From: Candidatus Rokubacteria bacterium GWA2_73_35
GTDB lineage: Bacteria; Methylomirabilota; Methylomirabilia; Rokubacteriales; CSP1-6
Direction: 5' to 3'
Length of the DNA: 35,017 bases
Assembly: GCA_001790205.1 (NCBI GenBank)
Contig: MGBU01000036.1
Location: 1-35,017 of the forward strand
The first letter of the stretch is position 1; the number at the start of each line of letters is the position of its first letter. The position numbers were made by a program, and so were the translations under genes. A model generated the notes under the pieces. That model was not told the origin of the DNA, did no database searches, and saw only the letters and a list, made by a program, of their open reading frames with translations. Shown here one piece after another: positions 3,840 through 35,017 of the stretch.

Positions 3840-3874
3840 CACGCGCTCATCTTACAGGCATCGGCGCGGTCCGC

Positions 3875-5401: not shown

Positions 5402-5438
5402 CGGAGTCCCCCCTTGATCGGTGTGGTCCCGGAACGCG

Positions 5439-5466: not shown

Positions 5467-5490
5467 AAGCGAACTGCGCCCGACGGGCAA
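5462..5490 (-). promoter_or_regulatory. Predicted sigma-70 promoter of the tup-mod operon
   Basis: On the minus strand, TTGCCC (5490-5485) and TATCGT (5467-5462) are separated by 17 bp, each matching 4 of 6 consensus positions. The -10 overlaps the upstream half of the ModE-like operator, the geometry of a repressed promoter. Confidence 0.5.
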
Positions 5491-5494
5491 GACC

Positions 5495-15322: not shown

Positions 15323-15760
15323 ATGGGGGCGCGCCGGCGAGGGCTCAGCAAGTGGTGGTGGCTCGGGCCGCTGATCGGGGCCTCGGCCCTCGCCGCGATC
15401 CTCGCCTGGCGCGGCGCAAGCCCCACCGAGGAGGCGAGGGCGCGCCAGGGCCAGGGCGGCGCGGTCCGCGTGGCCCGCCGCGAGACGCGCCCCACACTCG
15501 ATCCCGCGCGCTTCGTGGGCAAGGCGCGGCTCGCCCACCAGGTCGCGCGCGACATCCCCGACGTCCTCGACCAGCTCTACTGCTACTGCGAGTGCGACAA
15601 GACCATCGGCCACAAGAGCCTGCTCTCCTGCTTCACGGACGGCCACGCGGCCACCTGAGACATCTGCCAGGACGAGGCGCTGGACGCGTCTCGCATGGTG
15701 CAGGCGGGCTTCCGCGTGGACCGGATCCGCGCCGAGATCGACCGCAAGTACGCCCGATGA
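15323..15760 (+). CDS. PCYCGC-family protein with in-frame UGA: candidate selenoprotein (U112)
   Basis: 145 residues if TGA at 15656-15658 is read as selenocysteine. An N-terminal membrane anchor (~residues 11-30) is followed by a linker and a Cys-rich domain: CYCEC (Cys87, 89, 91), IGHKSLLSCF (Cys103), then HAAT-U112-DIC115-QDEA and a helix ending RIRAEIDRKYAR. Family members, as I recall them, have HGANCDICLDEA here, so UGA replaces the first Cys of a C-X2-C pair. After the UGA 33 sense codons continue, 31 of them ending in G or C, and the final TGA overlaps the next gene's start as ATGA. If UGA is a stop, the product is a 111-residue fragment lacking the second half of the motif. Function of the family is unknown; a thiol-redox or metal-handling role at the outer face of the membrane is inferred. 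Confidence 0.8.
15673..15693 (+). promoter_or_regulatory. Putative bacterial SECIS-like hairpin
   Basis: Begins 15 nt after the in-frame UGA. CGAG/CTCG and GCG/CGC form a stem with a 2-nt bulge (GU) on the 3' side and a CUGGA apical loop containing two G residues. CUGC (15664-15667) and GCAG (15700-15703) can extend it below. Distance and loop fit bacterial SECIS elements, though the loop lacks a G in its first two positions. Confidence 0.5.
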
Positions 15761-19072: not shown

Positions 19073-20251
19073 ATGCGGCCCGTCCTCCTCGCGCTCGGCC
19101 TCCTCGTGGCCCTCGCCGGGCCGGCCCTCGCGCAGTCCCTCTTCGGCGCGACCCAGGATCCGCTCGCCGGCTCCCGCGTGTTCGGCGCGCGCGGCTGCGT
19201 CAAGTGCCACGCGGTGAACGGCGTCGGCGGCATGGTCGGCCCCGATCTCGGTCGGATCGAACGGCCGCGCTCGTTCTTCGACCTCGCGGCGGCGCTCTGG
19301 AACCACGCCCCGCGGATGGCCGAAAGGATGCGGCAGCAGGGCATCGCGCGTCCCCGGCTCGACGCCCGCGAGATGGGCGACCTCGTCGCGTTCCTCTTCA
19401 CGCTCGACTACTTCGATCCCCGCGGCGACGTCGACGCGGGCCGGCGCCTCTTCACCGAGAAGCGCTGCGTGGTCTGCCACCAGGTCGGGGGCACCGGCGG
19501 CGTGGTCGGCCCGAACCTCGACGCGCTCCGGCAGTACGCGTCGCCGATCTACCTCGCCGCGCAGATGTGGAACCACGGCCCGCAGATGGCCGCGGTGATG
19601 GCGGCCCGGAAGATCCCGCGGCCCTCGTTCAAGGACGCCGAGCTCCGCGACCTGATCGCCTACATCGGCGCGGCGTCGCCGGTGATCGCGCAGGGGCCGC
19701 TCTACGTGCTGCCCGGCCGCGCGGGCCGGGGCCGCGCGCTCTTCGCCCAGAAGCGCTGCGCCGAGTGTCACAGCGCCGCGGGGCAGGGCGGCACGCTCGG
19801 CCCCGACCTCGCCGAGCGGAGCGTCACCCTGAGCCTGACCCAGTTCGCGAGCGCGATGTGGAACAAGACGCCGGCGATGCTCGCGGCGATGAAGAGCCGC
19901 GCGATCCCGGTGCCCCAGCTCCAGCCCGACGAGATGGCGGACGTCGTCGCCTACCTCTACTCCGTCCGCTACTTCGCCCAGGGCGGCGACCCGAAGAAGG
20001 GCGTCGCGGTCGCGAACGCCAAGGGCTGCCTCACCTGCCACGCCCTCGCGGGGGAGCGGGGCAAGCCCGCGGGCGACCTCGCCCGGGCGAAGGGCCTCGA
20101 CTCGCCGGCCGCCGTCCTCGCGGCGCTCTGGGACCACTCATTCATCGCGGACCCGCGGCCCGCGCGCGCCAAGGCGCCCTGGGCGGAGATCCGGCCCGGC
20201 GAGATGGCGGACCTCGTGGCCTTCCTCCAGTCGCTGCGCCGCCCGCAATGA
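19073..20251 (+). CDS. Tetrahaem cytochrome of four tandem WNHxPxM domains, last domain degenerate
   Basis: 392 residues with a signal peptide ending near ALAQS. CXXCH occurs at residues 42, 132, 229 and 319 (spacing 90, 97, 90), co-linear with the protein at 13923-15149. Domains 1-3 have LWNHAPRM, MWNHGPQM and MWNKTPAM. The fourth has LWDHSFIADP and no Met at the ligand position, so its haem may have a different distal ligand. TAGGAT at 19058-19063 could be a -10 for a nearly leaderless transcript. The stop overlaps the next ATG as ATGA, placing this gene at the head of the nonahaem-Rieske-cytochrome b set and making it a likely soluble electron acceptor of that complex. Confidence 0.9.
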   Translation: MRPVLLALGLLVALAGPALAQSLFGATQDPLAGSRVFGARGCVKCHAVNGVGGMVGPDLGRIERPRSFFDLAAALWNHAPRMAERMRQQGIARPRLDAREMGDLVAFLFTLDYFDPRGDVDAGRRLFTEKRCVVCHQVGGTGGVVGPNLDALRQYASPIYLAAQMWNHGPQMAAVMAARKIPRPSFKDAELRDLIAYIGAASPVIAQGPLYVLPGRAGRGRALFAQKRCAECHSAAGQGGTLGPDLAERSVTLSLTQFASAMWNKTPAMLAAMKSRAIPVPQLQPDEMADVVAYLYSVRYFAQGGDPKKGVAVANAKGCLTCHALAGERGKPAGDLARAKGLDSPAAVLAALWDHSFIADPRPARAKAPWAEIRPGEMADLVAFLQSLRRPQ

Positions 20252-21618
20252 CGCACGCGCGACGCTTCGTCCGCCGGGCGCCGCTCCTGCTGCTGCTGAC
20301 GCTCGCCGTCTGGGTGGCGCCGGCGACGGCGCAGCCCACGAAGGCCCCGCCGGCCAAGCCCCAGCCGGCGGCGGCGCAGCCCGCGAAGAGCCAGCCCGCG
20401 ACCGCGCAGCCCGCGAAGGCCGCGGTCGAGGGCTGCGCCACCTGCCACCGGGACACCGGCGACGAGCGGCTGGCAGGCCCCGTGAAGCTCTTCGACGGCG
20501 ACATCCACAAGGCCAAGGGGTTCGGCTGCGTCGCCTGCCACGGCGGCGACGGCAAGAGCGCCGAGATGGACGCGATGGACCCGGCGAAGGGCTACGTCGG
20601 CAAGCCGGGTCGCGGGCAGCTCACGCAGCTCTGCGGCCGCTGCCACTCGGACGCGCGCTTCATGAAGCAGTACAACCCGGCGCTGCGCGTGGACCAGGTG
20701 GCCGAGTACGCCACGTCGGTGCACGGGCGGCGCCTGCGCGAGCTCAACGACCCGAAGGTGGCGACGTGCGCCAACTGCCACCCGGCGCACTCGATCAAGC
20801 CCCCCTCGGACCCCGCCTCGAGCGTCCACCCGCTGCGCGTCGCCCAGACGTGCGGCCAGTGCCACGCGGACGCGAAGTACATGGCGGGCTACAAGATCCC
20901 CACCGACCAGCTCGCGAAGTACACGCAGAGCGTCCACTGGAAGACGATGTCGGCGAAGGGCGACCTCTCGGCGCCGACGTGCAACGACTGCCACGGCAAC
21001 CACGGCGCGGCGCCGCCGGGCGTTTCCTGGGTCGGCAACGTCTGCGGGCAGTGCCACACGGTCATGGCCGACCTCTTCGGCAAGAGCGTGCACGCCCGCG
21101 CGTTCCGCGACCTGGGCGTGCCCGGGTGCGCGACGTGCCACGAGAACCACGACATCAAGCCGGCCAGCACCGAGATGCTCGGGCTCGGCGGCCCGGCCGT
21201 GTGCTCGACGTGCCACGACGCGGGCAGCAAGGGCGGCCGCGCCGCCGTGGAGATGCGGGCGCTGATCGACGGCCTCAGGACGGAGCGCGACCGCGCCTCG
21301 GAGATCCTCGCGCGGGCGGAGCAGGCGGGCATGGAGGTGAGCCAGGCCCGCTTCGAGCTCGGTGGGGCCAACGACGAGCTCGTCAAGGCGCGCGCCGCCG
21401 TGCACGCCTTCCAGGTGGCGGCCGTGAAGAAGGAGGCGGAGGCCGGGCTCACGATCGCGCAGAAGGTCTACGCGCGCGGCGTGAGGGCCCTCGAGGACCT
21501 CCGCTTCCGGCGCACCGGCCTCGTCGTCTCGCTGGTCATCATCGTCGTGCTCATCGCCGCCCTGGTCTTGAAGATCCGCCAGATCGAGCGCCGCACGAGG
21601 TCACCGATCCAGGGCTGA
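20248..21618 (+). CDS. Nonahaem cytochrome with C-terminal coiled coil and membrane anchor
   Basis: 456 residues. A signal peptide and a Pro/Ala/Lys-rich linker (QPAK-type repeats, residues ~30-57) are followed by nine CXXCH motifs: CATCH, CVACH, CGRCH, CANCH, CGQCH, CNDCH, CGQCH, CATCH and CSTCH. Repeated YATSVHG, YTQSVHW and FGKSVHA segments supply probable distal His ligands. After the haem region come ~90 residues of predicted coiled coil (MRALIDGLRTERDRA onward), then one transmembrane helix near residues 425-445 and a basic cytoplasmic tail. The start overlaps the upstream stop. Its position before Rieske and cytochrome b suggests it takes the place of cytochrome c1 or f (inference). 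Confidence 0.9.
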   Translation: MTHARRFVRRAPLLLLLTLAVWVAPATAQPTKAPPAKPQPAAAQPAKSQPATAQPAKAAVEGCATCHRDTGDERLAGPVKLFDGDIHKAKGFGCVACHGGDGKSAEMDAMDPAKGYVGKPGRGQLTQLCGRCHSDARFMKQYNPALRVDQVAEYATSVHGRRLRELNDPKVATCANCHPAHSIKPPSDPASSVHPLRVAQTCGQCHADAKYMAGYKIPTDQLAKYTQSVHWKTMSAKGDLSAPTCNDCHGNHGAAPPGVSWVGNVCGQCHTVMADLFGKSVHARAFRDLGVPGCATCHENHDIKPASTEMLGLGGPAVCSTCHDAGSKGGRAAVEMRALIDGLRTERDRASEILARAEQAGMEVSQARFELGGANDELVKARAAVHAFQVAAVKKEAEAGLTIAQKVYARGVRALEDLRFRRTGLVVSLVIIVVLIAALVLKIRQIERRTRSPIQG

Positions 21619-21695
21619 GTGACCGTGGACAAATCGCGTTGTCGAGGGGCGCCACGGCGCAGCATGGGCGTCCCGAGGGCCGGGGTCGGGGGAGT

Positions 21696-21721
21696 CCGAG
21701 GGGGGCGTTAGCCCCCTTCGG
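21696..21721 (+). terminator. Hairpin between the nonahaem and Rieske genes
   Basis: CCGAGGGGGGC and GCCCCCTTCGG form an 11 bp stem (one G-T pair) with a GTTA loop. A second weaker stem (GGGGGC/GCCCCC) follows near 21735-21755. They may partly separate expression of the cytochromes from the Rieske/b genes. Confidence 0.5.
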
Positions 21722-21781
21722 CTGAACAATTGGGGGGCGCCCGGAGCCCCCGATAAATCGAGGTCGAGCCGGAGGCGCACG

Positions 21782-22237
21782 ATGGAGCACACGCTCGGAG
21801 GACCCGACGCGACGCGCCGGGGAGTGATCGGCTGGCTGCTCGGAACGAGCGCGGTGGCGTTCGCGCTCTCCGTGATCTATCCGATGGCGCGCTACCTGAT
21901 CCCCCCGACGGCCGGCGAGTCGCAGGCGGCGTCGGTGACGCTCCCGATCAAGCCCGCCGAGGTCAGGCTCAACAGCGGCCAGATCTTCAAGTTCGGCAAC
22001 CGGCCGGGGATCCTCGTGCGCACGCCCGCGGGCGACCTGCGCGCCTTCTCCGCGGTGTGCACGCACCTGAACTGCACGGTCCAGTACCGCGCCGACCTCT
22101 CCCACATCTGGTGCGCGTGCCACAACGGGCACTTCGACCTGAACGGCCAGAACGTCGCGGGCCCCCCGCCCCGCGCGCTCGACGCCTACGTCGTGAACGT
22201 GCGCGGCGCGCAGATCGTGGTGAGCAAGGGCGCCTGA
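21782..22237 (+). CDS. Rieske iron-sulfur protein of a cytochrome bc-type complex
   Basis: 151 residues with one N-terminal transmembrane helix (~residues 17-38) and a compact Rieske domain. Cluster-binding motifs are CTHLNC (Cys93, His95, Cys98) and CACHNGHFD (Cys111, Cys113, His114). Cys98 and Cys113 would form the disulfide. The small domain resembles b6f/menaquinol-type Rieske proteins rather than mitochondrial ones. GGAGG precedes the ATG. It transfers electrons from quinol at the cytochrome b Qo site to a c-type haem. The cytochrome b gene follows after 2 bp. Confidence 0.95.
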
Positions 22238-22239
22238 GC

Positions 22240-23337
22240 GTGGCCTCGTCCGGCGCCCCGCGCGGCCGCCTCTGGACCTGGCTCGACGAGCGCATCGGGC
22301 TCGCCGACATCGAGAAGCTCGCGCGCAAGAAGCAGATCCCGGTCCACCGCCACTCGCTCTGGTACTACTTCGGCGGCATGACGCTGTTCCTGTTCGTGGT
22401 CCAGGTGGCGACGGGCATCCTGCTGCTCCTCTACTACCGGCCGAGCGCGGAGGAGGCGTACGAGTCGGTCCAGTTCCTGATGGCCGAGGTCCAGTTCGGC
22501 TGGCTGATCCGCTCGATCCACGCGTGGTCGGCCAACCTCATGATCTTCGCGCTGTTCGTCCACATGTTCAGCGTGCTGCTCCTCAAGGCGTACCGGCGGC
22601 CGCGCGAGGTCACCTGGTTCTCGGGCGTCGGGCTCCTCGGGCTCGCGCTCGGCTTCGGCTTCACCGGCTACCTGCTGCCGTGGAACGAGCTGTCGTACTT
22701 CGCGACGAAGGTCGGCACCGAGATCACCGGCGCGGTCCCGGTCGCCGGCGCGTTCCTGCTGCGGCTCCTCCGGGGCGGCGACGAGGTGACCGGCGCGACC
22801 CTCACCCGCTTCTACGGGATCCACGTCGCGATCCTGCCGGCGATCACGACGGCCCTGCTCGGCCTCCACCTCTTCCTGGTCCAGAAGCACGGCATGAGCG
22901 TGCCGCCGTCGGTGGAGCGGCGCGGCGAGGGCGGGCGCACCACGCCCTTCGTCCCGAACTTCCTGCTGCGCGACATCGTCGGCTGGCTCTCGGCCCTGGC
23001 GGTCCTGGCCGCGCTCGCCGCGTTCCTCCCGACCGAGCTCGGCAAGAAGGCCGACCCGTTCACGCCGGCGCCGGTCGGCATCAAGCCCGAGTGGTACTTC
23101 ATGTTCATGTTCCAGACGCTCAAGTACCTGCCGGCCCACATCCTGGGCATCGAGGGGGAGGTCGTCGGCATCCTCGGGTTCGGCCTCGGCGGCGTGGCGC
23201 TGCTGCTCGTGCCGCTGCTCGACCGGCGCGCCGCGCGCGGCGAGTCGAGCCGCCTGTTCAGCGCGGCCGGCATCGCCCTCATCCTCTACATGCTGCTGCT
23301 CACGTACCTGGGCTACACGGTGAGCCCGACCAAATGA
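22240..23337 (+). CDS. Cytochrome b (b6 plus subunit IV-like fusion)
   Basis: 365 residues, GTG start 2 bp after the Rieske stop. Haem ligands are His94/His108 and His195/His210. The 14- and 15-residue spacings and the 101-residue distance match cytochrome b6 rather than bc1. The segment WYYFGG lacks the Cys that binds haem cn covalently in b6f-type proteins. The C-terminal part has the Qo motif PEWY in [19 protein letters not shown], so both halves are in one chain. Expected to be polytopic in the inner membrane and to oxidise quinol together with the Rieske protein. Confidence 0.93.
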
Positions 23338-23431: not shown

Positions 23432-23794
23432 ATGAAGCTCTCACGTTCCGGAATCTGGCTGCTCGTGGCCGCGCTCGCCGTGGTCCTGGCGGGCACGGCG
23501 CCCGTCGGCGCGCAGCCGAAGATTCCCGCCGACCTCACCTTCGACCAGGGCAAGGACAGCCCGGGCAAGGTCACCTTCAGCCACGTGAAGCACAAGGAGA
23601 CCAACGAGAAGTGCACGGCCTGTCACACCAAGATCTTCAAGATGAAGAAGGGCCAGACGGGCCCGCTCACCATGGAGGCCATGAAGAAGGGCACGCAGTG
23701 CGGCGCCTGCCACGACGACAAGACCAAGGCCGCGACCAAGGTCGTCTTCGGCGTGATCGACAAGGCGAGCTGCGAGAGGTGTCATAAGAAATAG
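23432..23794 (+). CDS. Trihaem c7-type cytochrome
   Basis: 120 residues, secreted (signal peptide to about residue 27), with CTACH, CGACH and CERCH. The layout SPGKVTFSHVKH before the first haem is typical of c7/c3-type small cytochromes, where those His residues are distal ligands. GGAGGAGG precedes the ATG. A clear paralogue lies at 24606-24965. Probable soluble electron shuttle for the Rieske/cytochrome b complex upstream. A strong hairpin follows. Confidence 0.92.
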   Translation: MKLSRSGIWLLVAALAVVLAGTAPVGAQPKIPADLTFDQGKDSPGKVTFSHVKHKETNEKCTACHTKIFKMKKGQTGPLTMEAMKKGTQCGACHDDKTKAATKVVFGVIDKASCERCHKK

Positions 23795-23959: not shown

Positions 23960-24586
23960 ATGGGACCCGCACGAAGGACCCCAGCGCTTCCGGGCGTCGC
24001 GCTCCTCGCGGCGGCTCTGGCCGCGATGCCCGCATGGGCCGAGCCGCCCGGCGACGCCGCGCGGGGCTCACGCGTGTTCGCGAGCAAGCAGTGCGCGAGT
24101 TGTCACCGGCCGAGCGGCCAGTCGGGCGTCGGGCCGGCGCTCGAGCGGCTGCGCCACCCCCAGGGCGCCTACGAGCTGGCGGGACGGCTGTGGAACCACG
24201 CGCCCGCGATGTTCACGGGCCTCACGCAGGAGCGACTCGAGTGGCCGCGGATCAACGCCGCCGAGATGGCGGACCTGATGGCCTACCTCGGGGCCGACCC
24301 GACGCGCGACCCCGCGCCGGATCTCGTGAAGGGCCGGCTGGCGCTGGTCGCCAAGGGCTGCCTCAAGTGCCACGCCTTCAGGGGCGAGGGCGGGCGCATC
24401 GGCCCCGACCTCGCCGAGGGCCGCGAGCGCTACGCGCCGCCGGCGACGTGGGCGGCCGCGGTGTGGCGCCACACGCCGCGCATGGCCGCCGTCGCGATCC
24501 AGCGCGAGGTGCTGTATCCGCGCTTCTCGGGGGACGAGATGGTCGACCTGCTCGGGTTCCTCCGGAGCGGCACGGGGACGCCGTGA
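23960..24586 (+). CDS. Dihaem cytochrome of two WNHxPxM domains
   Basis: 208 residues, signal peptide ending AWAEP, with CASCH (Cys45) and CLKCH (Cys134), 89 residues apart. Domain 1 has LWNHAPAM and domain 2 VWRHTPRM, both with Met as probable distal ligand. It is a half-length relative of the tetrahaem proteins at 13923 and 19073. The C-terminal YPRFSGDEMVDLLGFLRS closely matches the partial gene at the right edge (34913-35017). It heads the second cytochrome series, 19 bp before the next gene. Confidence 0.9.
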   Translation: MGPARRTPALPGVALLAAALAAMPAWAEPPGDAARGSRVFASKQCASCHRPSGQSGVGPALERLRHPQGAYELAGRLWNHAPAMFTGLTQERLEWPRINAAEMADLMAYLGADPTRDPAPDLVKGRLALVAKGCLKCHAFRGEGGRIGPDLAEGRERYAPPATWAAAVWRHTPRMAAVAIQREVLYPRFSGDEMVDLLGFLRSGTGTP

Positions 24587-24605: not shown

Positions 24606-24965
24606 GTGAGCCGGCGCTCCGCGCGCCTGGCACTCCTCACGCTCGCCGCGGGTCTCGGCCTCCTGCTGCTCGCCGACGGCGCGAGCGGCGCCGAGGTCAA
24701 GCTCCCGCCGGACTTCCCGATCAGGAAGTCGGAGTCGAGCCCCGGCCAGGTGACGTTCAGCCACGCCCGGCACGTGGCGAAGGTCGACACGTGCAGCGCC
24801 TGTCACATGCGCGACCTCAAGATGAAGCGCGACGCGTCGGGGCCGATGACGATGGCCGCGCTCGAAAAGGGCAAGCTCTGCGGCGCCTGCCACGACGGCA
24901 AGACCACGCTTCGCGGGACCAGGGTGTTCCCGCTCGACCAGTGCGACGCGTGCCACAAGGACTGA
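24606..24965 (+). CDS. Second trihaem c7-type cytochrome
   Basis: 119 residues with signal peptide, GTG start. CSACH, CGACH and CDACH and the segment SPGQVTFSHARH align with the protein at 23432-23794, showing a local duplication. Probably a soluble shuttle for the multihaem/Nap module that follows. Its last codons overlap the predicted start of the 13-haem gene. Confidence 0.92.
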   Translation: MSRRSARLALLTLAAGLGLLLLADGASGAEVKLPPDFPIRKSESSPGQVTFSHARHVAKVDTCSACHMRDLKMKRDASGPMTMAALEKGKLCGACHDGKTTLRGTRVFPLDQCDACHKD

Positions 24966-26338
24966 GCCGCGCGCTCGTCGCCGCGGCCGTCCTCGGCGCC
25001 GCGCTCGCCTCCGGCGCGGCCGAGGCGGCCGCGCAGGCCCCGACGACGGAGGACTGCCTGGCCTGCCACGCCGACCGCGACCTCAAGCGCGAGAAGCCCG
25101 CGCGCGGGCAGCCCGCCTCGCTCTTCGTGGACGGCACGGCGCTCGGGGCCTCCGCGCACGGCGCGCTCGAGTGCGTCGCCTGCCACAGGACGGCGACGGC
25201 CCCCCACGAGCGGCTCCCCCGGGTGCGCTGCGCCGACTGCCACGACAAGGTGGAGCCCGCGCTCGCCGAGGGCGCCCACGGGCGCCGTGGTGCGCAGGCG
25301 CGCGCGCCGGCGCCGACGTGCACCGCGTGCCACGGCACGCACGACGTCCGCCCGGTGGCGGCGTTCTCCATCGACACGTGCGCGACGTGCCACGCCGGCC
25401 AGGTCCGCCAGTACCGGGAGAGCATCCACGGCGCGTCGCGTCGGCGCGGGGACTCCGAGGCCGCGACCTGCCGGTCGTGCCACGGCGCGGCCCACGCGCT
25501 GCTCGCCAAGTCGGACCCGCGGGCGCCCACGTACCACCTGAACCTGCCCCGGACCTGCGCCGCGTGCCACGCCGACCCGGAGCTGGCGAAGCGCCACAAC
25601 ATCGCCGTCGGCGCCGTCTACCAGCTCTACATGGACTCGATCCACGGCCGCGCCGTCACCCGGAGCGGCCTGCTCGTCGCCGCGAACTGCTCGGACTGCC
25701 ACGGCGCCCACGACATCAAGCCGCACACCGCGCCGACCTCGCGGGTGTTCCGCGCGAACGTCCCGGGCACCTGCGGCGCGTGCCACGCGGGCGTCCTCAA
25801 GGACTACGCGCAGTCGATCCACGGACGCGAGGCGGCGCGGGGCAGCGCGCGCGCGCCCGTCTGCACCGACTGCCACTCGGCGCACCAGATCCGGCGCACC
25901 GAGGCCGCGCCCTGGCAGCTCGACGTCATCCGGGAGTGCGGCACGTGCCACGCGGAGTCGCTCCGGACCTACCGCGACACCTTCCACGGCAAGGTCACGA
26001 CGCTCGGGTTCGCCCGCGTCGCCAAGTGCGCCGACTGCCACGGCTCGCACACGATCCAGTCGACGTCGGACCCGCGCTCGGCGGTCGCGAGCGCCAACAT
26101 CGTCGCCACCTGCCGCCAGTGCCATCTCGCCGCCACGCCGAAGTTCACCCAGTTCCAGCCCCACGCCGACCCGACGAACCGGGCGCGGTTCCCCGGGCTC
26201 TACTACGTCTGGCTCTTCATGACCCTGCTCCTCGTGGGCACCTTCAGCTTCTTCGGCCTCCACACGCTGCTCTGGCTGCCTCGCTCGCTGGCCGATCGGC
26301 TGCGCCGGGGTCGCTCGCAGCCCGACCCGGAGCCATGA
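24950..26338 (+). CDS. 13-haem membrane-anchored cytochrome
   Basis: About 462 residues with 13 CXXCH motifs (first CLACH, last CRQCH). Four YRESIHG/YMDSIHG/YAQSIHG/YRDTFHG segments recur between haem motifs and provide likely distal His ligands, as in the nonahaem protein at 20248-21618. A C-terminal transmembrane helix (LYYVWLFMTLLLVGTFSFFGLHTLLWL) and a basic tail follow. No ATG begins the frame. GTG 24950, inside the preceding gene, gives a signal peptide, and CTG 24962 is an alternative. The ATGA overlap with the b561-like gene suggests the two form one membrane complex moving electrons from the quinone pool outward (inference). Confidence 0.88.
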   Translation: MPQGLSRALVAAAVLGAALASGAAEAAAQAPTTEDCLACHADRDLKREKPARGQPASLFVDGTALGASAHGALECVACHRTATAPHERLPRVRCADCHDKVEPALAEGAHGRRGAQARAPAPTCTACHGTHDVRPVAAFSIDTCATCHAGQVRQYRESIHGASRRRGDSEAATCRSCHGAAHALLAKSDPRAPTYHLNLPRTCAACHADPELAKRHNIAVGAVYQLYMDSIHGRAVTRSGLLVAANCSDCHGAHDIKPHTAPTSRVFRANVPGTCGACHAGVLKDYAQSIHGREAARGSARAPVCTDCHSAHQIRRTEAAPWQLDVIRECGTCHAESLRTYRDTFHGKVTTLGFARVAKCADCHGSHTIQSTSDPRSAVASANIVATCRQCHLAATPKFTQFQPHADPTNRARFPGLYYVWLFMTLLLVGTFSFFGLHTLLWLPRSLADRLRRGRSQPDPEP

Positions 26339-27147
26339 GCGACCGCTACTACTTCCGCTTCAACCTCTACCACCGGATCCTGCACGGGATGGTGATCGTG
26401 AGCTTCCTCGGGCTGGCCCTGACCGGCCTGCCCCTCAAGTACGCGCACACGGGCTGGGGCGCGGGGCTCTCGCGCGCGCTCGGTGGGCCGTTCACCACCG
26501 GCTACCTGCACCGCTTCTTCGCGATCATCACGTTCACGTACTTCAGCCTGCACCTCGGCTACGTCCTGCGTCTCGTGCTCCAGCGCCGGCCCGGGATCTT
26601 CTGGGGCCCGGGCTCGATGGTGCCGCAGCCCCACGACCTCGTGCAGTTCGTCCAGCACGTCCGCTACTTCGTCGGGCTCGGCCCGCGGCCGCGCTTCGGA
26701 CGCTGGGCGTACTGGGAGAAGTTCGACTACTGGGCGGTCTTCTGGGGCGTGTCCATCATCGGCGGGTCCGGGCTGCTCCTCTGGTTCCCGACGTTCTTCG
26801 CCCGCTTCCTGCCCGGCTGGGTCTTCAACGTGGCCATCGTCGTCCACAGCGACGAGGCCCTCCTCGCCGTGGGCTTCATCTTCACGATCCACTTCTTCAA
26901 CGGCCACCTCCGCCCCGAGAAGTTCCCGCTGGACCCCGTCATCTTCACCGGCCGCGTCTCCGCGGAGGACTGGCGCCACGAGCACCCCGAGGAGTACGAG
27001 CGGCTCGAGCGCGAGGGGCGCCTCGGCGAGGTCGCCGCCGATCCGCCGCCGCTCTGGATGCGGAACTTCTCGCGGGTCGTCGGATTCAGCTCGCTCGCGA
27101 TCGGGATCACCCTCATCTGGCTGATCATCTGGACGGCCCTCCGATGA
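26335..27147 (+). CDS. Cytochrome b561/FdhI-like membrane quinol-oxidising subunit
   Basis: 270 residues with about five transmembrane segments. FNLYHRILHGMVIVSFLGLALTGLPLKY and GYLHRFFAIITFTYFSLHLGY hold the His residues that ligate two haems b in the formate dehydrogenase gamma / cytochrome b561 family. HSDEALLAVGFIFTIHFFNGHLRPEKFPLD is also family-typical. It overlaps the 13-haem gene upstream and the NapC-like gene downstream (ATGA), so stoichiometric production is likely. It should pass electrons between membrane quinone and the multihaem partners. Confidence 0.9.
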   Translation: MSDRYYFRFNLYHRILHGMVIVSFLGLALTGLPLKYAHTGWGAGLSRALGGPFTTGYLHRFFAIITFTYFSLHLGYVLRLVLQRRPGIFWGPGSMVPQPHDLVQFVQHVRYFVGLGPRPRFGRWAYWEKFDYWAVFWGVSIIGGSGLLLWFPTFFARFLPGWVFNVAIVVHSDEALLAVGFIFTIHFFNGHLRPEKFPLDPVIFTGRVSAEDWRHEHPEEYERLEREGRLGEVAADPPPLWMRNFSRVVGFSSLAIGITLIWLIIWTALR

Positions 27148-28079
27148 GCCCGGGAGCGCCCGTGGACGACCCCACCGTCACGTCGCGGCGGCACCGCCGC
27201 GGCCTCGTGATCCTCGTCATCGTCGGCCTCGTCCTGGTCGTCGGCGTCGCGGGGGGCGCGGGGCTCTGGCAACTCAGCACGAGCCCGCTCCTCTGCAACT
27301 CGTGCCACATCATGAAGCCCTACGTGGAGGCCTGGCGGACGTCCAAGCACAACCAGGTGACCTGCGTGCAGTGCCACTACCCGCCCGGCTTTCGCGACAC
27401 GATCTGGGTCAAGTACCAGGCCCTCGCCCAGGTGGCGAAGTGGGCGACGCAGACGTACAGCTCCAAGCCCTTCGCCGAGATCGAGGACGCGAGCTGCCTC
27501 CGCTGCCACGAGCGGCGCCTGCTCCAGGGCAGGGTCACGTTCAAGCGCGGGATCATCTTCGACCACAAGCCGCACCTCGAGGAGGTCCGCCGCGGGCGCC
27601 AGCTCCGCTGCACGAGCTGCCACTCGCAGATCGTCGTCGGCACCCACATCGAGGTCACGCAGGAGACGTGCTTCCTCTGCCACTTCAAGGGCCTGAAGAC
27701 GGCCCGCGAGATCCGGCCGATCGGCGGCTGCACGGGGTGTCACCAGCCGCCCCGGGGCGACGTCAGGGTCGGCTCCCTGACCTTCAACCACGCCGACATC
27801 CTGCGCCGGCGCGTGGCGTGTGAGAGCTGCCACCTGAACGTCGTCCAGGGCGAGGGTGAGGCGCCGCGCGAGCGCTGTTTCACCTGCCACAACCAGCCCG
27901 AGAAGCTCCAGCGCTACCCCGACACGCCGTTCATCCACGACTTCCACGTGGCGGGGCGCAACATCGAGTGCCTCCGCTGCCACACGGCCATCCAGCACAA
28001 GCTCCCGCCGATGATCGGCGTGCCGAGCGCCGCGGCGCCCGGCGACCCGGCGCTGGCGGCGGCGAGGGCGGCGCGATGA
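27144..28079 (+). CDS. NapC/NirT-like nonahaem cytochrome
   Basis: 311 residues. An N-terminal membrane anchor ([23 protein letters not shown]) is followed by nine CXXCH motifs: CNSCH, CVQCH, CLRCH, CTSCH, CFLCH, CTGCH, CESCH, CFTCH and CLRCH. The first, [24 protein letters not shown], with CVQCHYPP next, is the NapC/NirT/NrfH signature. NapC and NrfH normally have four haems, so this is an extended relative. Probable role: quinol dehydrogenase feeding electrons to NapAB. Overlaps both neighbours by 4 bp. Confidence 0.9.
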
Positions 28080-29428
28080 GCCGGGCCGCGCTCGCGGGAG
28101 CGCTGCTCGCGCTCGCGCTCGCCGCCGGCCTGGCCGGCGCCCAGGAGCGTCCCCCCGCCGCGCCGCCGCCAGCACCCATGCACCCCGGCCTCCGCCCGCT
28201 GCCCCCCGAGACGCCGGCCACGCCGCAGCGCCGCGGCGAGCTGGACTGCGCCGCGTGCCACGTGAGCAAGCACCAGGGCGTCGTCCGCATGTACCTCGGG
28301 ATGGGCGGGCACGGCACCCCGATGATCCCGAGCCACATGTTCCAGGTCCGGGTCGAGTGCGTGGCCTGCCACATCGCGCCGAAGGAAGCCGAGGAGCTTC
28401 GGAAGGGCCTCGTCGGGCAGACGTTCAGGCCGAGCGAGCAGGCGTGCCTCGGCTGCCACGGCGAGCGCTACCGCGGGATGCTCCGGCAGTGGACCGACAC
28501 GCTCGAGCGGATGTCGGCGGTGCTCGCGCCGAAGCTCGAGGCCGCGCGCGACGTCCTCCGGGCCGCCGACCCCCGGAACCCGAAGCTCGAGCGCGCCAGG
28601 AAGCTCGTGGACGACGCCGAGTTCAACGCCCGCTTCGTCACGTTCGCCAAGGGCGTGCACAACGTCTTCTACGCCGCCGACCTGCTCAAGCTCGCCAACG
28701 CCTGGCTCGACGAGGCCGTCGGGCTGCTCGGCCGGCCGCCCATCAAGAGCGACGACCAGCTCGTGCGCGGCGGGTACTGCGCGACGCTCTGCCACCAGGC
28801 GGCCGGCGTGAAGCAGACCGAGACGGTGACGTTCCGGAAGCAGAAGGTGCCGCACGTCCGGCACGTCAGCGAGTTCGGCGCGACCTGCACCTCCTGCCAC
28901 TCGGCGGAGACGCACAAGGCGGTGACCGCGACGCCGGCGACGTGCACCGCGTGCCACCACAGCCCGCAGAACGAGCGGTGCGAGAGCTGCCACCGCGAGC
29001 AGAGCGCCTTCTACCGCGGCAAGACGGCGACGGCGCTCGCGACGCTCACGCCGAACCTCATGGCCGAGACCGTCGCGTGCACGAGCTGCCACGACCGCTC
29101 GCGGAAGCCCTCACGCGCGGCGCTCGCCGAGGCCTGCCTCGGCTGCCACGAGCCGCAGTACACTCTGATCCTGCCCGAGTGGACCGCCGGGTTCGGCGAC
29201 GAGGTGCGCCGGACGGCGGCGGCCGTCGGGAAGGCGGAGGCCGCGCTCGCGCGCGTCCGCCGGGCCGGGCGCAAGAACCCCGAGGCCGAGGCCCTGCTCG
29301 CGCGCGCGCGCGAAGCGCTGGCGCTCGTGCGCAAGGGCGGCGCCGCCCACAACCCGCTCGCCGCCGACGCGCTGCTCTCCGCGGCGCGAGAGGCCGCGGC
29401 GCAGGCGGCCGCGGGCGTTCGTCAGTGA
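28076..29428 (+). CDS. Nonahaem cytochrome with one CX3CH site and helical inserts
   Basis: 450 residues, signal peptide to about residue 22. Eight CXXCH motifs plus one CX3CH ([11 protein letters not shown] 28778-28795). A helical stretch between the third and fourth haem sites (WTDTLERM to EAVGLLG) includes [18 protein letters not shown], a pattern also found in NrfA-like and NapM-like cytochromes. The C-terminal ~80 residues are Ala/Arg/Glu-rich helix. No membrane anchor beyond the signal peptide. Directly upstream of napA (14 bp), it is the likely immediate electron donor of NapAB, but no catalytic role can be excluded. Confidence 0.87.
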
Positions 29429-29442: not shown

Positions 29443-31797
29443 ATGAAGATCCATCGCCGGGAGTTCATCAGGGCGACCGTCACCGCCGGCGTCGCGTCCG
29501 CGGTCGGCGCGGACCTCCTCGTCCCGCCCGAGGCCCAGGCCGAGCCGCCGGTCGATCGCTGGCAGAAGGCCCCGTGCCGCTTCTGCGGCACGGGCTGCGG
29601 CGTGCTGGTCGGCGTGCGCCGGGGACGGGTCGTCGCGGTGCGCGGCGACGCGGAGAACGCCGTGAACCGGGGGCTCCTCTGCGTCAAGGGCTACAGCCTG
29701 CCGAAGATCCTCTACGGAAGCGACCGGCTCACCACACCGCTGCTCAGGAAAGGCGAGCGGTTCGTGCCGATCACCTGGGACGCCGCGCTCGACCTCGCCG
29801 CACGCAAGATCAAGGACGCGATCCGTGCGCACGGCCCCGAGTCCGTGGCCGCCTACTTCTCGGGCCAGTCCACGATCTTCGAGGGCTACGCGATCAACAA
29901 GCTGCTGAAGGGCGGGCTCGGCACGAACAACCTCGAGGGCAATCCCCGCCTCTGCATGGCCTCGGCCGTCGCCGGCTTCTACTCGACCTTCGGCATGGAC
30001 GAGCCGATGGGCTGCTACGACGACCTCGACCTGGCCGACGTGGTCTTCGCCTGGGGCTCGAACGTCGCGGAGATGCATCCGGTCCTGTACTCGCGCATCA
30101 CGGCGCGCAAGCTCCAGGACCCGCGCGTCGTGCTCGTGAGCCTGCAGACCTTCACGAACCGCACCTCGGACGAGCCGGCTGACCTCGCGGTGGTCTTCAA
30201 GCCGCACTCGGACTTGGCGCTCGCCAACGCGATGGCCCACGTCCTCGTCAAGGAGGGCCTGGTCGACCGCGAGTTCGTCACCCGGCATACCGTCGCCAAG
30301 CGGGGGCTCGAGCAGATCGGCTTCGGCCTCCGGGACACCGACGAGTACGGCGGCCGGCCGCCGAGCTGGGCGACCTACAAGCCCTTCGCGGACCGCGGGA
30401 CGACGATCGGCTTCGACGAATACGTGAAGTTCCTCGAGCCGTACACGCCCGAGCACGCCGAGCGGGTCTCGGGCGTACCCGCCGACCAGATCAGGCGGAT
30501 GGCGCGCCTCTACGGCGACCCCGGGCGCAAGGTCGTGTCCCTCTGGACGATGGGCTTCAACCAGCACACGCGGGGGACCTGGATCAACAACCTCGTCTAC
30601 AACCTCCACCTGCTCACCGGGAAGATCTCGGCGCCGGGCAACGGCCCGCTGTCGCTCACCGGCCAGCCCTCGGCCTGCGGCACCACGCGCGAGACGGGCG
30701 CGCTCTCGCACCTCCTGCCCGCCGGCCACTTCGTCGCCAACCCGGAGCACCGGAAGAAGGCCGCGGAGATCTGGAAGGTGCCGTTCGAGCGGATCTCGCC
30801 CCGCCCCGGCTACCACACGATGGAGATGTTCCGCGCCCTCGACCGCGGCGACATCCGGGTCATCTGGATCAACACGACGAATCCCTTCCAGACGCTCCCG
30901 CACGTCAGCCGCTACCGTGCGGGCGCGCGTCGTGGCGGCGAGCGCTTCGTGATCGTCTCGGAGGTCTATCCGAGCGAGACCTCGCGCCTGGCGGACCTCG
31001 TCCTGCCCTCGGCGATGTGGGTCGAGAAGGAGGGGATGTTCGGCAACACCGAGCGGCGGACCCAGCACTGGGCGAAGATGGTCGACCCGCCCGGCCAGGC
31101 CCGCGACGACCTCTGGCAGATCGTCGAGCTGGCCAGGCGGCTCGGCCTCGGCAGCCTGTTCGAGTACGGCGGGGAGCCACTGCGCAAGGCCCTGTTCGAG
31201 GAGTACCGCCAGTGGGGCCTCGGCAAGGGCAAGGACCTCGCGCCCTACGAGGTCTACACGAAGGTGCGCGGCGGGCTCCGCTGGCCCGTCGTCGACAACC
31301 GGGAGACGCGCTGGCGCTACCGCGAGGGCTTCGATCCGTACGTCAAGAAGGGCGAGGGCGTGCGCTTCTACGGCAACCCCGACGGCCGCGCGGTGATCTG
31401 GGCTCGCCCGTGGGAGCCGCCGGCGGAGGCGCCGGACCCGGAGTACCCGTTCTGGCTCACGACCGGCCGGGTGCTCGAGCACTGGCACACGGGCACGATC
31501 ACGCGGCGGGTCCCGGAGCTGCACCGCGCCGTGCCCGCGGCGCCCGTCTGGCTCAACCCCGAGGACGCCCGGGCCCTCGGCCTGACCGACGGCGCCCGCG
31601 TGCGGGTGGCCTCGCGGCGCGGCGAGGTGGTGGCCCGCGCGCAGGTCGGCGGGCGGAACACGCCGCCGCGCGGGACGGTGTTCGTCCCCTTCTTCGACGA
31701 GAGCGCGCTGATCAACCTGGCCACCCTCGACGCCTACGACCCGATCTCCAAGCAGCCCGACTTCAAGAAGTGCGCCGTGCGCGTGGCGAAGGCGTGA
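29443..31797 (+). CDS. napA: Periplasmic nitrate reductase catalytic subunit NapA
   Basis: 784 residues. A twin-arginine signal ([13 protein letters not shown]) exports the folded protein. The 4Fe-4S site is CRFCGTGCG (Cys45, 48, 52) plus Cys80. Molybdenum is expected on Cys171 in [11 protein letters not shown]; it is Cys, not Sec. Diagnostic NapA blocks are [24 protein letters not shown] and the C-terminal [14 protein letters not shown]. It reduces nitrate to nitrite with a bis-MGD cofactor. It is a full-length, ordinary NapA; GAAGGAGGG precedes the ATG. napB follows after 16 bp. No napD chaperone gene is visible. Confidence 0.95.
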
Positions 31798-31813
31798 GAG
31801 GGAGGGCACGACC

Positions 31814-32131
31814 ATGAGGCACGCAAGCTGGAACACCGGGGTCGTGGCGGGCACGGCGCTCGCGCTCGTCGTCGGGCTCTTCACGGGCATCGCCCAGGGA
31901 CAGGCGCAGACCGGCCCGAGCAAGCGGCTGCCCCGGGCCTACGCGGGCGCGCCGCCGCTCGTGCCGCACGAGGTCGAGGCCCGCAAGGGGCTCTGCCAGG
32001 AGTGCCACGCGACCGGCGCCGACGGGGCGCCGATCACGCCCCATCCCGAGCGCGCGGCGTCCTGCGTCCAGTGTCACGTGGAGCAGGACCTCGCCGTCAA
32101 ACCGTTCGTGCCGTCGACGTGGCGCCGCTGA
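31814..32131 (+). CDS. napB: Dihaem NapB subunit
   Basis: 105 residues, signal peptide (to about residue 32), then RLPRAYAGAPPLVPHEVE, CQECH, APITPHPERAASCVQCHVEQ, all diagnostic of NapB. It is shorter than most NapB proteins but keeps both haems and the His ligands. It receives electrons from the upstream multihaem proteins and passes them to NapA. Its 3' end overlaps the 3' end of the opposing nrfD-like gene by 35 bp. Confidence 0.93.
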   Translation: MRHASWNTGVVAGTALALVVGLFTGIAQGQAQTGPSKRLPRAYAGAPPLVPHEVEARKGLCQECHATGADGAPITPHPERAASCVQCHVEQDLAVKPFVPSTWRR

Positions 32132-33329
32132 GCGCCTTCCCCCGGGGCCCCTCCGTCGGCAGGAGCTTGAGCAGCACGTAGAGGACCACGAACGGCAGCG
32201 CCAGCAGGACGAGCGCGGCGAGGAGCCCCTCGATCCCCATGACCTCCATCTTGTAGGTCGTCAGCCCCCGGAAGCTCTTCGAGAAGAGCTGGCCGCCGAT
32301 CACGACGTTCCAGCGGGTGGCGAAGATGCCGATCTGGATCAGGATCACCGCGGTGAAGTAGAGGAGCTTGCGCAGCTCGGCGCCGAAGCCGCACGCTTTC
32401 GCGAGCACCAGGATGCCGAGGGGGATGAACATCCCCAGCAGGATCTGGACCACCCACAGGCTCATGAAGAGCTTGTGGGTGATGAGGCTGCCCAGGATCT
32501 TGACGGACTCCTCGCTCTGGTACAGGCGGTGGACGAAGTCGAGCGCCTCGAGCGAGAAGTCCACGATGACCGCGTAGAAGAGGTACGAGGTGATCCGGTC
32601 CAGGCACGGCATGTCGATCGGCTCGCCCCGCACCCCCGCCCGCACCATGTAGATCAGGATGACGAGCGCGATCCCGGACACAATCGCCGACATGAGGAAG
32701 ACGATCGGCATCAGCACGCTGCCCCACCAGGGGTTCGCCTTCACGGAGCCGAAGATGAAACCGACGTAGCCGTGGAGGAGGAAGGCGGACGGGATGCCGA
32801 TGATCGTGATGACCTGGGTCGCCTTCCGGTCGAACGCGAGCGACGCCTCGCTCGTGTCCTTCGAGTACAGCGACAGGACGCGGTAGACCCAGTTGAGCGG
32901 GAAGCGCGAGGTCTGGGCCAGCTCGATGAGGTCGCGGCGGTACTCGAACCAGATCTCCAGCAGGAGGACCCCCATGAGGTACCAGGCGTACACGAAGCCG
33001 AACATCGCCATCGCGGAGGTCGGGTTCGGGGTCAGGAGGATCTCGTAGAACCGTTGCGGCTGGCTCAAGTGCAGGAGCAGGGGCAGGGGCGCGATCAGCA
33101 GGAAGGCGAGCGCGGTCAGCAGGGACAGCCGGTACGTCGGCTGGACCTCCTTGATCCTGAACACCTTCACCAGCGAGGCGAGGATGAACGCGCCCGCCAC
33201 CAGACCCGTGACGTACGGGTAGACCACGATCAGGATCGACCAGTGGACCTCGATCTCGTTGGGGTAGATGAATCCCGTGACCTGCCCGAGCAGCTCGGCC
33301 AGGCCGTCCGCGCCCTTCGTGAGGCTCAT
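32097..33329 (-). CDS. NrfD/PsrC-family membrane subunit
   Basis: 410 residues with about ten hydrophobic segments, beginning after an N-terminal stretch (GFIYPNEIEVHWSILIVVYPYVTGLVAGAFILASL) typical of NrfD-type quinone-interacting proteins. No haem motif. In this family the subunit binds quinol without haem and passes electrons to a ferredoxin-like partner, which is the gene immediately upstream (ATGA overlap). The tail runs 35 bp into napB on the opposite strand. Confidence 0.9.
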   Translation of the reverse strand: MSLTKGADGLAELLGQVTGFIYPNEIEVHWSILIVVYPYVTGLVAGAFILASLVKVFRIKEVQPTYRLSLLTALAFLLIAPLPLLLHLSQPQRFYEILLTPNPTSAMAMFGFVYAWYLMGVLLLEIWFEYRRDLIELAQTSRFPLNWVYRVLSLYSKDTSEASLAFDRKATQVITIIGIPSAFLLHGYVGFIFGSVKANPWWGSVLMPIVFLMSAIVSGIALVILIYMVRAGVRGEPIDMPCLDRITSYLFYAVIVDFSLEALDFVHRLYQSEESVKILGSLITHKLFMSLWVVQILLGMFIPLGILVLAKACGFGAELRKLLYFTAVILIQIGIFATRWNVVIGGQLFSKSFRGLTTYKMEVMGIEGLLAALVLLALPFVVLYVLLKLLPTEGPRGKALSGATSTARTV

Positions 33330-34129
33330 CGCACCTCTCCGTCGAGATTGGCGTAGTACACCTTCGGGTCCGTGTTGAGCTGGGGCTTGAGGACGTGGAG
33401 CTTGTTGAGCCGCCGGAAGCGCACGAGCCGGCTCGCGTGGCTCCGGAGGTCGCCGAAGATCCGGGCCTGGGTCGGGCAGACCTCGACGCAGGCGGGCTGG
33501 AGCCCCTTGACGAGGCGGTGCAGGCAGAAGGTGCACTTGTCGGCGACCCGGGTCTTCGGGTGCAGGTAGCGCTGCCCGTACGGGCACGCCTGGATGCAGT
33601 AGCGACAGCCGATGCAGCGCTCGGCGTCGATGATGACCACGCCGTCCTGCGTCGTGAACGTCGCGTTCACGGGGCACACCTGGACGCAGGGCGGCTTCTG
33701 GCACTGGTTGCAGAGCTTCGGGACGAAGAAGGTCCGCACGACCTCGCGGGCGTCCTGCACCGGCTCCCGCATCGGCTCGCGCGCCGTGCCGAGGCTGATG
33801 TTCCCGACGCTGACCTCCCCGTCGCGGGTGATCGTGTAGCGCTCGACCCAGGTCCGGAAGTAGAAGGGCTCGTCGGGCACGTCGTTCTCGACCTTGCACG
33901 CGACGGCGCACAGGTTGCAGCCGATGCACTTGTCGATGTCGATGCCCATGCCGTAGTAGTGGGCGCTGGGCTCGTAGCCGTTCTTCGCGTTCGGCGCGGC
34001 GGCCGGCTGCTTCGCGGCCGGCTCCTTCGCCGCGGTCTCCTTGCCGGCCGCGTGGCGCGCGACGGCCCCCAGCACGCCGGCGGCGGGGATGAAGACGACG
34101 GCGCCCTTCAGGAACTCGCGCTTGTTCAT
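33326..34129 (-). CDS. Four-cluster ferredoxin subunit (NrfC/DmsB-like) with Tat-like signal
   Basis: 267 residues. The N-terminus MNKREFLKGAVVFIPAAGVLG resembles a twin-arginine signal with KR in place of RR. An Ala/Lys/Pro-rich linker follows. Four 4Fe-4S motifs are seen: CIGCNLCAVACK, CNQCQKPPCVQVCP, CIGCRYCIQACP and CTFC..PACVEVCP. This is the standard electron-transfer partner of NrfD-type proteins and lies between that gene and an octahaem cytochrome with overlaps on both sides. No molybdopterin subunit accompanies the set. Confidence 0.92.
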   Translation of the reverse strand: MNKREFLKGAVVFIPAAGVLGAVARHAAGKETAAKEPAAKQPAAAPNAKNGYEPSAHYYGMGIDIDKCIGCNLCAVACKVENDVPDEPFYFRTWVERYTITRDGEVSVGNISLGTAREPMREPVQDAREVVRTFFVPKLCNQCQKPPCVQVCPVNATFTTQDGVVIIDAERCIGCRYCIQACPYGQRYLHPKTRVADKCTFCLHRLVKGLQPACVEVCPTQARIFGDLRSHASRLVRFRRLNKLHVLKPQLNTDPKVYYANLDGEVR

Positions 34130-34866
34130 GGCCGCCCCTCGGGGAGGTGCGGATAGTGGCACTCCCAGCAGAGGTTGCGCGCCCCGTGCGTGGCGATGTC
34201 CACCTTCGGCGCCTCCTTCGGCGTGCCCGCTCGCCCCTGGCCGTGACACGTCGCGCAGAACTCCCGCGAGTCGGGCTTCGACGGCAGGGCGGTTCTCGGC
34301 GCGGTCTTGTGCCGCTCGGGCGCCTTGTGGCACGTGGTACAGGTGAGGAGCGCGTGGCTCGACACCGCCTTCGTCCGCTCGATCTGGGCGTGGCACGCCG
34401 CGCACTCCTTCGGCACCTTCGGGGGCACCGGATCGTGCGGGTTGTGGCACGTGGAGCAGGACTTCAGCGGGTTGTGCGTCGTCAGGTTGATCTGCGGGAA
34501 GCCCGTCGGTCTGGACGGGTCGTAGGCGTGGCACCTGGCGCACGTCGTGCGATCGCGCGGGATCACGGGCTTGGCGGCCGACGGGTCCTCGGCGTGCTTG
34601 ACGGACGGGGCGTGGCAGCCCTCGCACGCCAGCACCCGGTGGAAGCTCTTCGCCTTCTTGGCCGCGATGTCGTCGTGGCAGTCCTGGCAGGCCGTCGAGC
34701 CCGCGAACTTCACCGGCTTGGCCGACTCGCGCTGCGTGGTGAGCGACCAATGCAGGGAGGTGGACGTGAGCGAGCGCGGAATGAGAACGAAGCGGGCGAC
34801 GAGCGTGAGCGCGACGAGGACGCCGATGACGATCGCGAGCCGTTTGACCTGCTCAGGAATTCTCAA
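34126..34866 (-). CDS. Membrane-anchored octahaem cytochrome
   Basis: 246 residues, starting with TTG 34866, preceded by AAGGAGG with a 6 bp gap. One N-terminal transmembrane helix (~residues 8-28) and eight CXXCH motifs: CQDCH, CEGCH, CARCH, CSTCH, CAACH, CTTCH, CATCH and CWECH. It overlaps the ferredoxin gene as ATGA. In a quinol:cytochrome module of the NrfD type it would accept electrons from the iron-sulfur subunit (inference). No substrate site was recognised. Confidence 0.9.
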   Translation of the reverse strand: MRIPEQVKRLAIVIGVLVALTLVARFVLIPRSLTSTSLHWSLTTQRESAKPVKFAGSTACQDCHDDIAAKKAKSFHRVLACEGCHAPSVKHAEDPSAAKPVIPRDRTTCARCHAYDPSRPTGFPQINLTTHNPLKSCSTCHNPHDPVPPKVPKECAACHAQIERTKAVSSHALLTCTTCHKAPERHKTAPRTALPSKPDSREFCATCHGQGRAGTPKEAPKVDIATHGARNLCWECHYPHLPEGRP

Positions 34867-34912
34867 CCACCGCCTCCTTCGTCGCTGTCCTTCGTCGCCG
34901 GGCCGGGCCGCG

Positions 34913-35017
34913 TCAGCGCCGCGGCGCCGGGCCGCGGGGCGTCGCCGACGCGCTCCGCAGCAGCCCGATCAGGTTCACCATCTCGTCGCCCGCGAAGCGC
35001 GGGTAGGCGATCCCCTG
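34913..35017 (-). CDS. C-terminal end of a WNH-type dihaem cytochrome (partial)
   Basis: Only the last 34 codons are in the window. YPRFAGDEMVNLIGLLRSASATP matches the C-terminus of the dihaem protein at 23960-24586 (YPRFSGDEMVDLLGFLRSGTGTP). It is therefore very likely another member of the same family. No CXXCH is visible in this piece. It heads the octahaem-ferredoxin-NrfD series on the minus strand, as the paralogue at 23960 heads its own series. Confidence 0.8.
   Translation of the reverse strand, partial: QGIAYPRFAGDEMVNLIGLLRSASATPRGPAPRR

Follow-up and report, generated by a model that had tools for sequence, protein, structure and literature searches.

What purpose is served by a respiratory module that combines a quinol-type membrane subunit, an iron-sulfur (FeS) subunit and multihaem cytochromes without any catalytic subunit? 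This question is raised by the right-hand end of contig MGBU01000036.1 from Candidatus Rokubacteria bacterium GWA2_73_35 (GenBank assembly GCA_001790205.1), where such a unit lies on the minus strand, tail to tail with napB of a periplasmic nitrate reductase. We analysed the entire contig (C36; 35,017 nucleotides), hereafter called the window, which ends at position 35017. An earlier note on this DNA had suggested that the adjacent NapAB could be the acceptor of the unit. The reading that we prefer, with a probability of roughly 60%, is that the unit is a molybdenum-free quinol:multihaem-cytochrome oxidoreductase of a known kind that mainly serves a porin-cytochrome conduit; Nap would then be a neighbour particular to this lineage and perhaps an additional acceptor. 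The features concerned are:

32097-33329, minus strand: nrfD, NrfD-type membrane quinol subunit of 410 amino acids (PF03916, 141.4 bits against a cut-off of 25.8)
33326-34129, minus strand: four-[4Fe-4S] electron-transfer subunit of 267 amino acids, with 16 cysteines in four 4Fe-4S motifs (Fer4_11 and other domains)
34126-34866, minus strand: octahaem cytochrome c of 246 amino acids with a TTG start, an N-terminal anchor helix and eight CXXCH motifs
34913-35017, minus strand: di-haem 'WNH' cytochrome c, C-terminal 34 codons only, continuing on contig C23 of the same genome (L077:1-504)
34943-35017, no strand: exact 75-base overlap with the start of C23, linking the window to VKOR-MtrA-MtrB genes

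The nrfD, FeS and octahaem genes are joined by successive overlaps of 4 base pairs (bp). This part of the unit, together with the lack of a molybdenum enzyme, agrees with the earlier description; the WNH cytochrome also listed there is represented in the window only by its tail, which carries neither WNH nor CXXCH, while the WNH motif and two CXXCH motifs are located on C23. As no molybdopterin gene is present in the minus-strand unit, it does not qualify as a complex iron-sulfur molybdoenzyme of the Psr, Ttr, Dms or Nar type.

The membrane subunit belongs to the NrfD/PsrC superfamily by its PF03916 match. A sequence-profile search against PDB chains returned nothing at E<=10, and a search of a plasmid collection gave five records, all haloarchaeal, at 31-35% identity. 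Its structural model (mean predicted local distance difference test score 72, predicted template modelling score (pTM) 0.76) matched 6btm_C, 8k9e_C and 6f0k_C best in Foldseek (TMq 0.70-0.73, E 2e-7 to 1e-6), and the predicted fold thus most resembles ActC from alternative complex III. Among the curated NCBIfam families searched, NrfD scored far below every cut-off and the FeS subunit also stayed below every cut-off, with DsrO as the nearest family for the latter (173.4 bits against 200). The FeS protein starts with a sequence resembling a twin-arginine translocation signal (NKREFLKG, with KR, in the window; RR in the relatives G024, G086 and G085), and it therefore probably faces the periplasm.

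For the octahaem cytochrome, whose model contains a helix at residues 5-28, we aligned 45 sequences chosen from 70 candidate references plus that of the window. All eight CXXCH motifs were invariant in this alignment, as were eight further histidines (H76, 91, 131, 144, 171, 186, 227 and 240). This pattern would fit eight bis-histidine haems with no open catalytic haem, so that the protein looks like an electron wire rather than an active site. It could instead be a terminal reductase, like MccA or octahaem nitrite reductase, and in favour of this, parts of the sequence match eight-haem nitrite reductases and, weakly, MccA; however, each of these profile matches covers only about 32-95 positions, the protein has 246 amino acids compared with about 495-732 for such enzymes, and the eight extra invariant histidines leave no obvious open haem site. 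We consider a reductase role very improbable.

To which genes does the unit connect beyond the right edge? A genome-wide search for the terminal 75-base stretch found no further full-length, full-identity copy besides the end of C36 and the start of C23; a third, partial match (84% over 55 bases) corresponds to a paralogous cytochrome at 24515-24569. On C23 (8958 bp), the di-haem cytochrome is followed on the opposite strand by genes for a VKOR-like protein, a decahaem cytochrome, an MtrB/PioB porin, a 112-amino-acid protein and a two-component system (histidine kinase plus response regulator, the latter truncated by the end of the contig). The decahaem cytochrome scored 266.8 bits against a cut-off of 192.2 for TIGR03508 (DmsE/MtrA family) and the porin 309 bits against 240.05 for TIGR03509 (MtrB/PioB), so that the adjacent pair at L077:2199-5397, with both families above cut-off, represents a porin-cytochrome conduit. 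Contig C16, which contains an octahaem-like match, was considered as a neighbour of the window and rejected, as its ends do not overlap.

The same order occurs in a genome of the same genus, Rokubacteria bacterium RIFCSPLOWO2_02_FULL_73_56 (G003; MGCF01000122.1), in which contigs C122 and C168 share a 94-base overlap inside nrfD. There, NapC, the octahaem cytochrome mhc8, NapA and NapB face NrfD, FeS, octahaem and di-haem cytochrome genes, followed by VKOR-MtrA-MtrB, as in the window plus C23, and consecutive parts of one G003 contig align to the end of the window and the start of C23. Among the genes called on C23 (8958 bases) and in the counterpart locus of G003, none for a molybdopterin subunit was seen; the refuting result named in the earlier note, such a subunit just past the right edge, was thus looked for without being found. 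Gene order in relatives was established with a codon-usage gene finder together with tblastn or blastp; the finder was trained on the GC-rich genes of the window and overlooked the majority of genes in several loci, L043 and L086 included, and its proteins were also the source of home-made profiles.

We next asked how far module and conduit occur together in 99 related genomes, the window's own included, counting the module as present when an NrfD match reached at least 300 bits. MtrB was scored by PF11854 (MtrB/PioB), MtrA by an MtrA query protein and NapA at E<=1e-150; since the genomes are incomplete and related to each other, the p values are rough. The module was present in 19 of the 99 genomes, 18 of which had an octahaem match above 90 bits; in G014 the contig ends inside nrfD and there was no strong octahaem match. 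MtrB was found in 16/19 module genomes versus 18/80 others (p 9e-7; 15/19 when a weak match in G014 is dropped), and MtrA in 14/19 versus 18/80. Within the window's family, MtrB occurred in 13/13 genomes with the module and in 3/44 without it, and when counted by genus in 8/8 versus 3/16; the corresponding family figures for mhc8 were 12/13 and 2/44. NapA, by comparison, was found in 6/19 module genomes and 13/80 others (p 0.19). Across these genomes, the module thus tracks the MtrB/MtrA conduit better than NapA. Matches to both MtrA and MtrB share a contig with module genes in five genomes (G003, G024, G021, G041 and G033), and an MtrA match alone does so in two more (G002 and G043); in the window's genome, both are linked to the module via the contig overlap.

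The nitrate reductase genes that face the unit end a plus-strand run of c-type cytochrome, b561-like, NapC-type, mhc8, napA and napB genes, which are joined by 4-bp overlaps or gaps of 14-19 bp. The plus-strand features concerned are:

21782-23337, plus strand: Rieske protein and b6-type cytochrome b, which may offer a further quinol route (closest NCBIfam families, without reaching their cut-offs: b6f Rieske and cytochrome b6)
26335-27147, plus strand: cytochrome b561 / formate-dehydrogenase-gamma-like membrane protein (TIGR01583 42.8 bits and PF01292 23.3 bits, both below cut-off)
27144-28079, plus strand: NapC/NirT-type quinol dehydrogenase with a cytochrome c7-like extension and nine CXXCH motifs (PF03264 and PF14522, above cut-off)
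28076-29428, plus strand: second octahaem cytochrome, labelled mhc8, with eight CXXCH motifs, whose occurrence goes along with that of the NrfD module and of MtrB
29443-31797, plus strand: napA, periplasmic nitrate reductase catalytic subunit of 784 amino acids (NF010055, 1060.1 bits against 904; TIGR01706, 1031 against 931)
31814-32131, plus strand: napB, di-haem cytochrome of 105 amino acids (PF03892, 30.0 bits against 25.1; below the NapB NCBIfam equivalog cut-off, 20.8 against 230)

Could the NrfD module be a second quinol route for this NapAB, as first proposed? The two are directly adjacent and convergent in the window and in G003, and within the family NapA shows a weak association with the module (4/13 versus 2/44, p 0.02). 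A route towards Nap that bypasses NapC has also been suggested elsewhere: passages of PMC5317091 propose a Rieske/cytochrome b route in Caldithrix. On the other hand, no NapA match reached the threshold used in 13 of the 19 genomes with the module, the association is no longer apparent by genus (2/8 versus 2/16, p 0.58), the genes lie apart in G002, and in G014 no napAB lies between the nrfD tail and mhc8. Moreover, the FeS and NrfD pair SirCD is described as serving the pathways of CymA except that of nitrate (PMC11434368), and the Nap operon includes a NapC-type protein of its own. We therefore regard NapAB as an unlikely principal acceptor. The related idea of two quinol routes holds insofar as the locus contains more than one candidate quinol dehydrogenase, namely the Rieske/cytochrome b pair (21782-23337), the b561-like and NapC-type proteins (26335-28079) and NrfD.

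The convergence itself is not fixed. It is present in two of the four genomes of the genus, the window's own and G003, and in both the two genes share exactly 35 bp at their 3' ends, confirming the overlap length given in the earlier note. In G002, nrfD and napB are both present on different contigs with other neighbours, and the nrfD tail faces a four-haem cytochrome; in G001 (77% complete), neither an NrfD of this subfamily nor a NapA was found. Elsewhere, the gene that the nrfD tail faces is mhc8 in G014, at a distance of 28 bp, and belongs to a formate-dehydrogenase-like set in G024. The gene opposite the nrfD tail thus varies among genomes.

It had also been suggested that the overlap causes antisense interference. 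As a regulatory device, it could draw on the equal overlap length in G003 and on the 31600-33500 region, in which no terminator- or promoter-like site was found (shuffle means 0.5 and 0.1), so that read-through would be possible. Nonetheless, G002, in which no nrfD faces napB, has an almost identical napB end (FVPSTWRR), and the antisense of that tail reads SAATSTARTA followed by a stop, which is the stop codon that ends nrfD in the window's genome and in G003; furthermore, it is at its C-terminus that the NrfD protein varies. We found no support for interference and consider a regulatory role highly unlikely. Because the G002 napB antisense already carries the stop, the overlap looks as if nrfD had extended into a reading frame that was already there, an appearance that sets no order of events, since G002 could have lost the convergent arrangement.

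How widely is the module itself conserved? A profile of 14 NrfD sequences retrieved at least 515 relatives from the genome_contigs collection, and we examined the best 80 (62-91% identity). These loci span Rokubacteria, Methylomirabilota, Eisenbacteria, Deltaproteobacteria, Acidobacteria, Ignavibacteria/Melioribacter, Aminicenantes, Calditrichota, Neomarinimicrobiota, Planctomycetota, Zixibacteria, Gemmatimonadaceae and others. Octahaem, FeS and NrfD genes followed each other in this order on one strand in 67 of the 68 loci with room upstream of nrfD, the sole exception being L099, a second Rokubacteria copy. The three genes are therefore a near-fixed cassette across many phyla. Matches to the octahaem profile in the 80 loci (n=72) had eight CXXCH motifs in 69 cases, seven in two and five in one. 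Matches to NapA or another molybdenum enzyme lay within 3.5 kilobases (kb) of nrfD in 4/80 loci, although our home-made profiles may miss other such enzymes. At L034:5836-9288 and L035:6227-9597 (genomes G032 and G043), TtrA-like and ArrA-like molybdoenzymes, both below cut-off and with their own FeS subunits, are encoded upstream of the cassette; different candidate terminal reductases therefore adjoin the same module in different genomes. Genome G013 carries two NrfD copies of the subfamily (L087 and L045), one followed by a Rieske/cytochrome b set and the other with the full cassette.

Several of these results count against a general tie to the conduit. A Rieske or cytochrome b match was found within 8 kb of nrfD in 30/80 loci, and in 21/80 a Rieske gene lies directly downstream on the same strand, so that outside the window's class the visible link of the module is mostly with Rieske/cytochrome b. 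In the same loci MtrB was detected in 1/80 and MtrA-like proteins in 6/80, using home-made profiles built from few sequences, and the conduit reading therefore generalises only to a limited extent. MtrB was also not found in 3 of the 19 module genomes, with a weak match only in G014, so the conduit is not obligatory. Against the preferred reading as a whole, the octahaem model had a low pTM of 0.47 and no PDB match at E<1e-3, and module and NapA are weakly associated at the family level, as described above.

Weighing both sides, we propose that the three cassette proteins would act as one membrane-bound complex, in which NrfD would bind and oxidise quinol and electrons would travel along the four clusters of the FeS subunit, on the periplasmic side, to the octahaem cytochrome anchored in the membrane. 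From there they could enter a periplasmic multihaem pool, formed by the di-haem WNH cytochrome and the octahaem protein of 28076-29428. Judging by the genes beyond the contig end and the co-occurrence, the main outlet of this pool would be the MtrA-MtrB-type conduit in the outer membrane, that is, extracellular electron transfer. NapAB would be a genus-level addition to this electron-transfer locus that may draw on the same pool, besides the NapC-type protein of its own operon. The module might also run in reverse, with multihaem cytochromes, fed from outside or by another donor, reducing quinone via NrfD in extracellular electron uptake. The porin family bears the name MtrB/PioB, and Pio systems take electrons up. 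The related Nhc complex, moreover, is listed as a cytochrome:quinone oxidoreductase in PMC8076601. Nevertheless, the sequences favour neither direction, and we hold this reversal to be rather unlikely.

Other parts of the window also encode electron-transfer functions. Four-haem and nine-haem cytochromes precede the Rieske and b6-type cytochrome b genes at 19073-23337, and a 13-CXXCH cytochrome is encoded at 24962-26338, with profile-related multihaem proteins (9-19 CXXCH) near the cassette in other phyla. Two paralogous pairs were apparent, namely tri-haem c7 proteins (23432-23794 and 24606-24965) and di-haem WNH cytochromes (23960-24586 and 34913-35017), of which the latter contribute one member to each facing unit. 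The stretch 15323-17685 encodes a small protein that matches PCYCGC below threshold and a 642-amino-acid membrane protein (Fer4_5, weak NapH similarity), and relatives of the membrane protein adjoin the module in L042, L044 and L045. On the minus strand, 1021-5833 holds a molybdate/tungstate uptake set with ModB and ModA above cut-offs and ModC-like, TupB-like, TupA-like and ModE-domain proteins below them. No Rfam family and no tRNA was found in the whole window.

Rokubacteria and their relatives are largely uncultured, and electron export in them has so far mostly been inferred. In this context, a seemingly orphan module beside a nitrate reductase becomes a testable hypothesis, namely that an NrfD-type complex in the inner membrane is the gate to a conduit in the outer membrane, and a cassette shared in near-fixed order by many phyla is nevertheless not captured by the curated families searched. 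A wider and more tentative idea is that the cassette might form a respiratory complex in its own right, with deep conservation: a pared-down relative of alternative complex III, free of molybdenum, that in many uncultured phyla serves as the entry in the inner membrane to conduits of the outer membrane. As it is often encoded with a Rieske/cytochrome b/multihaem complex, low- and high-potential quinol exits might lead into one multihaem pool, into which nitrate reduction would have been plugged later in this Rokubacteria genus. In the accessible parts of the literature searched, we found no description of the cassette in Rokubacteria or of its link to MtrAB; a table in PMC6295460 lists one ImcH homologue in Rokubacteria, with no mention of NrfD in that passage.

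How does the unit compare with known systems? NrfABCD nitrite reductase has a similar FeS, NrfD and multihaem arrangement, but the proteins stay below its equivalog cut-offs (NrfD, TIGR03148, 62 against 347.6 bits; NrfC, TIGR03149, 141.4 against 377.6). MccACD sulfite reductase has a large catalytic octahaem MccA, whereas the 246-amino-acid protein gave only weak partial matches (E 0.0012 and 0.0023). A further octahaem complex, Ohc, belongs to sulfate reducers. For DsrMKJOP, the FeS protein comes close to DsrO while falling short of its cut-off, as given above, and NrfD is far from DsrP (36.5 against 350 bits), both being equivalog cut-offs. Alternative complex III (ActABCDEF) shares the core of multihaem, FeS and NrfD subunits, and the predicted NrfD fold resembles ActC at 15-16% identity; in contrast to ActB, the 267-amino-acid FeS protein consists only of ferredoxin-type domains and lacks the molybdopterin-like domain.

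The closest likenesses are with molybdenum-free units, described in the passages cited here, and the composition of multihaem cytochrome c, four-cluster FeS protein and NrfD without a molybdenum subunit places the window's unit in the same class. Nhc (NhcABCD) combines these three kinds of subunit without a molybdenum enzyme and differs, by description, in having nine haems and the extra NhcD (PMC8076601). Cbc4 (CbcSTU) of Geobacter likewise has a c-type cytochrome, an FeS and a membrane subunit, no catalytic subunit and a link to extracellular electron transfer; it differs, again by description, in that CbcU is termed a b-type cytochrome in a figure legend (PMC11434368). Mros1572-1571 of Melioribacter roseus pairs a four-cluster-type FeS protein with NrfD without a molybdenum subunit (PMC3534657), and units of the candidate phylum MBNT15 have a multihaem cytochrome in place of that subunit next to FeS and NrfD (PMC9386147). 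For both, the role proposed is the same as ours, a quinol:acceptor reductase that supplies multihaem cytochromes of the periplasm and Fe(III) reduction (PMC3534657; PMC9386147). Loci titled Melioribacter sp. (L132 and L134) carry the same cassette, while Mros1571-1572 is likened to it by gene composition; unlike the Melioribacter and MBNT15 units, that of the window converges with napAB and diverges from VKOR-MtrA-MtrB. The kind of complex is thus already known, and what is more interesting is its near-fixed order across phyla and the tie to a conduit that a contig break had hidden.

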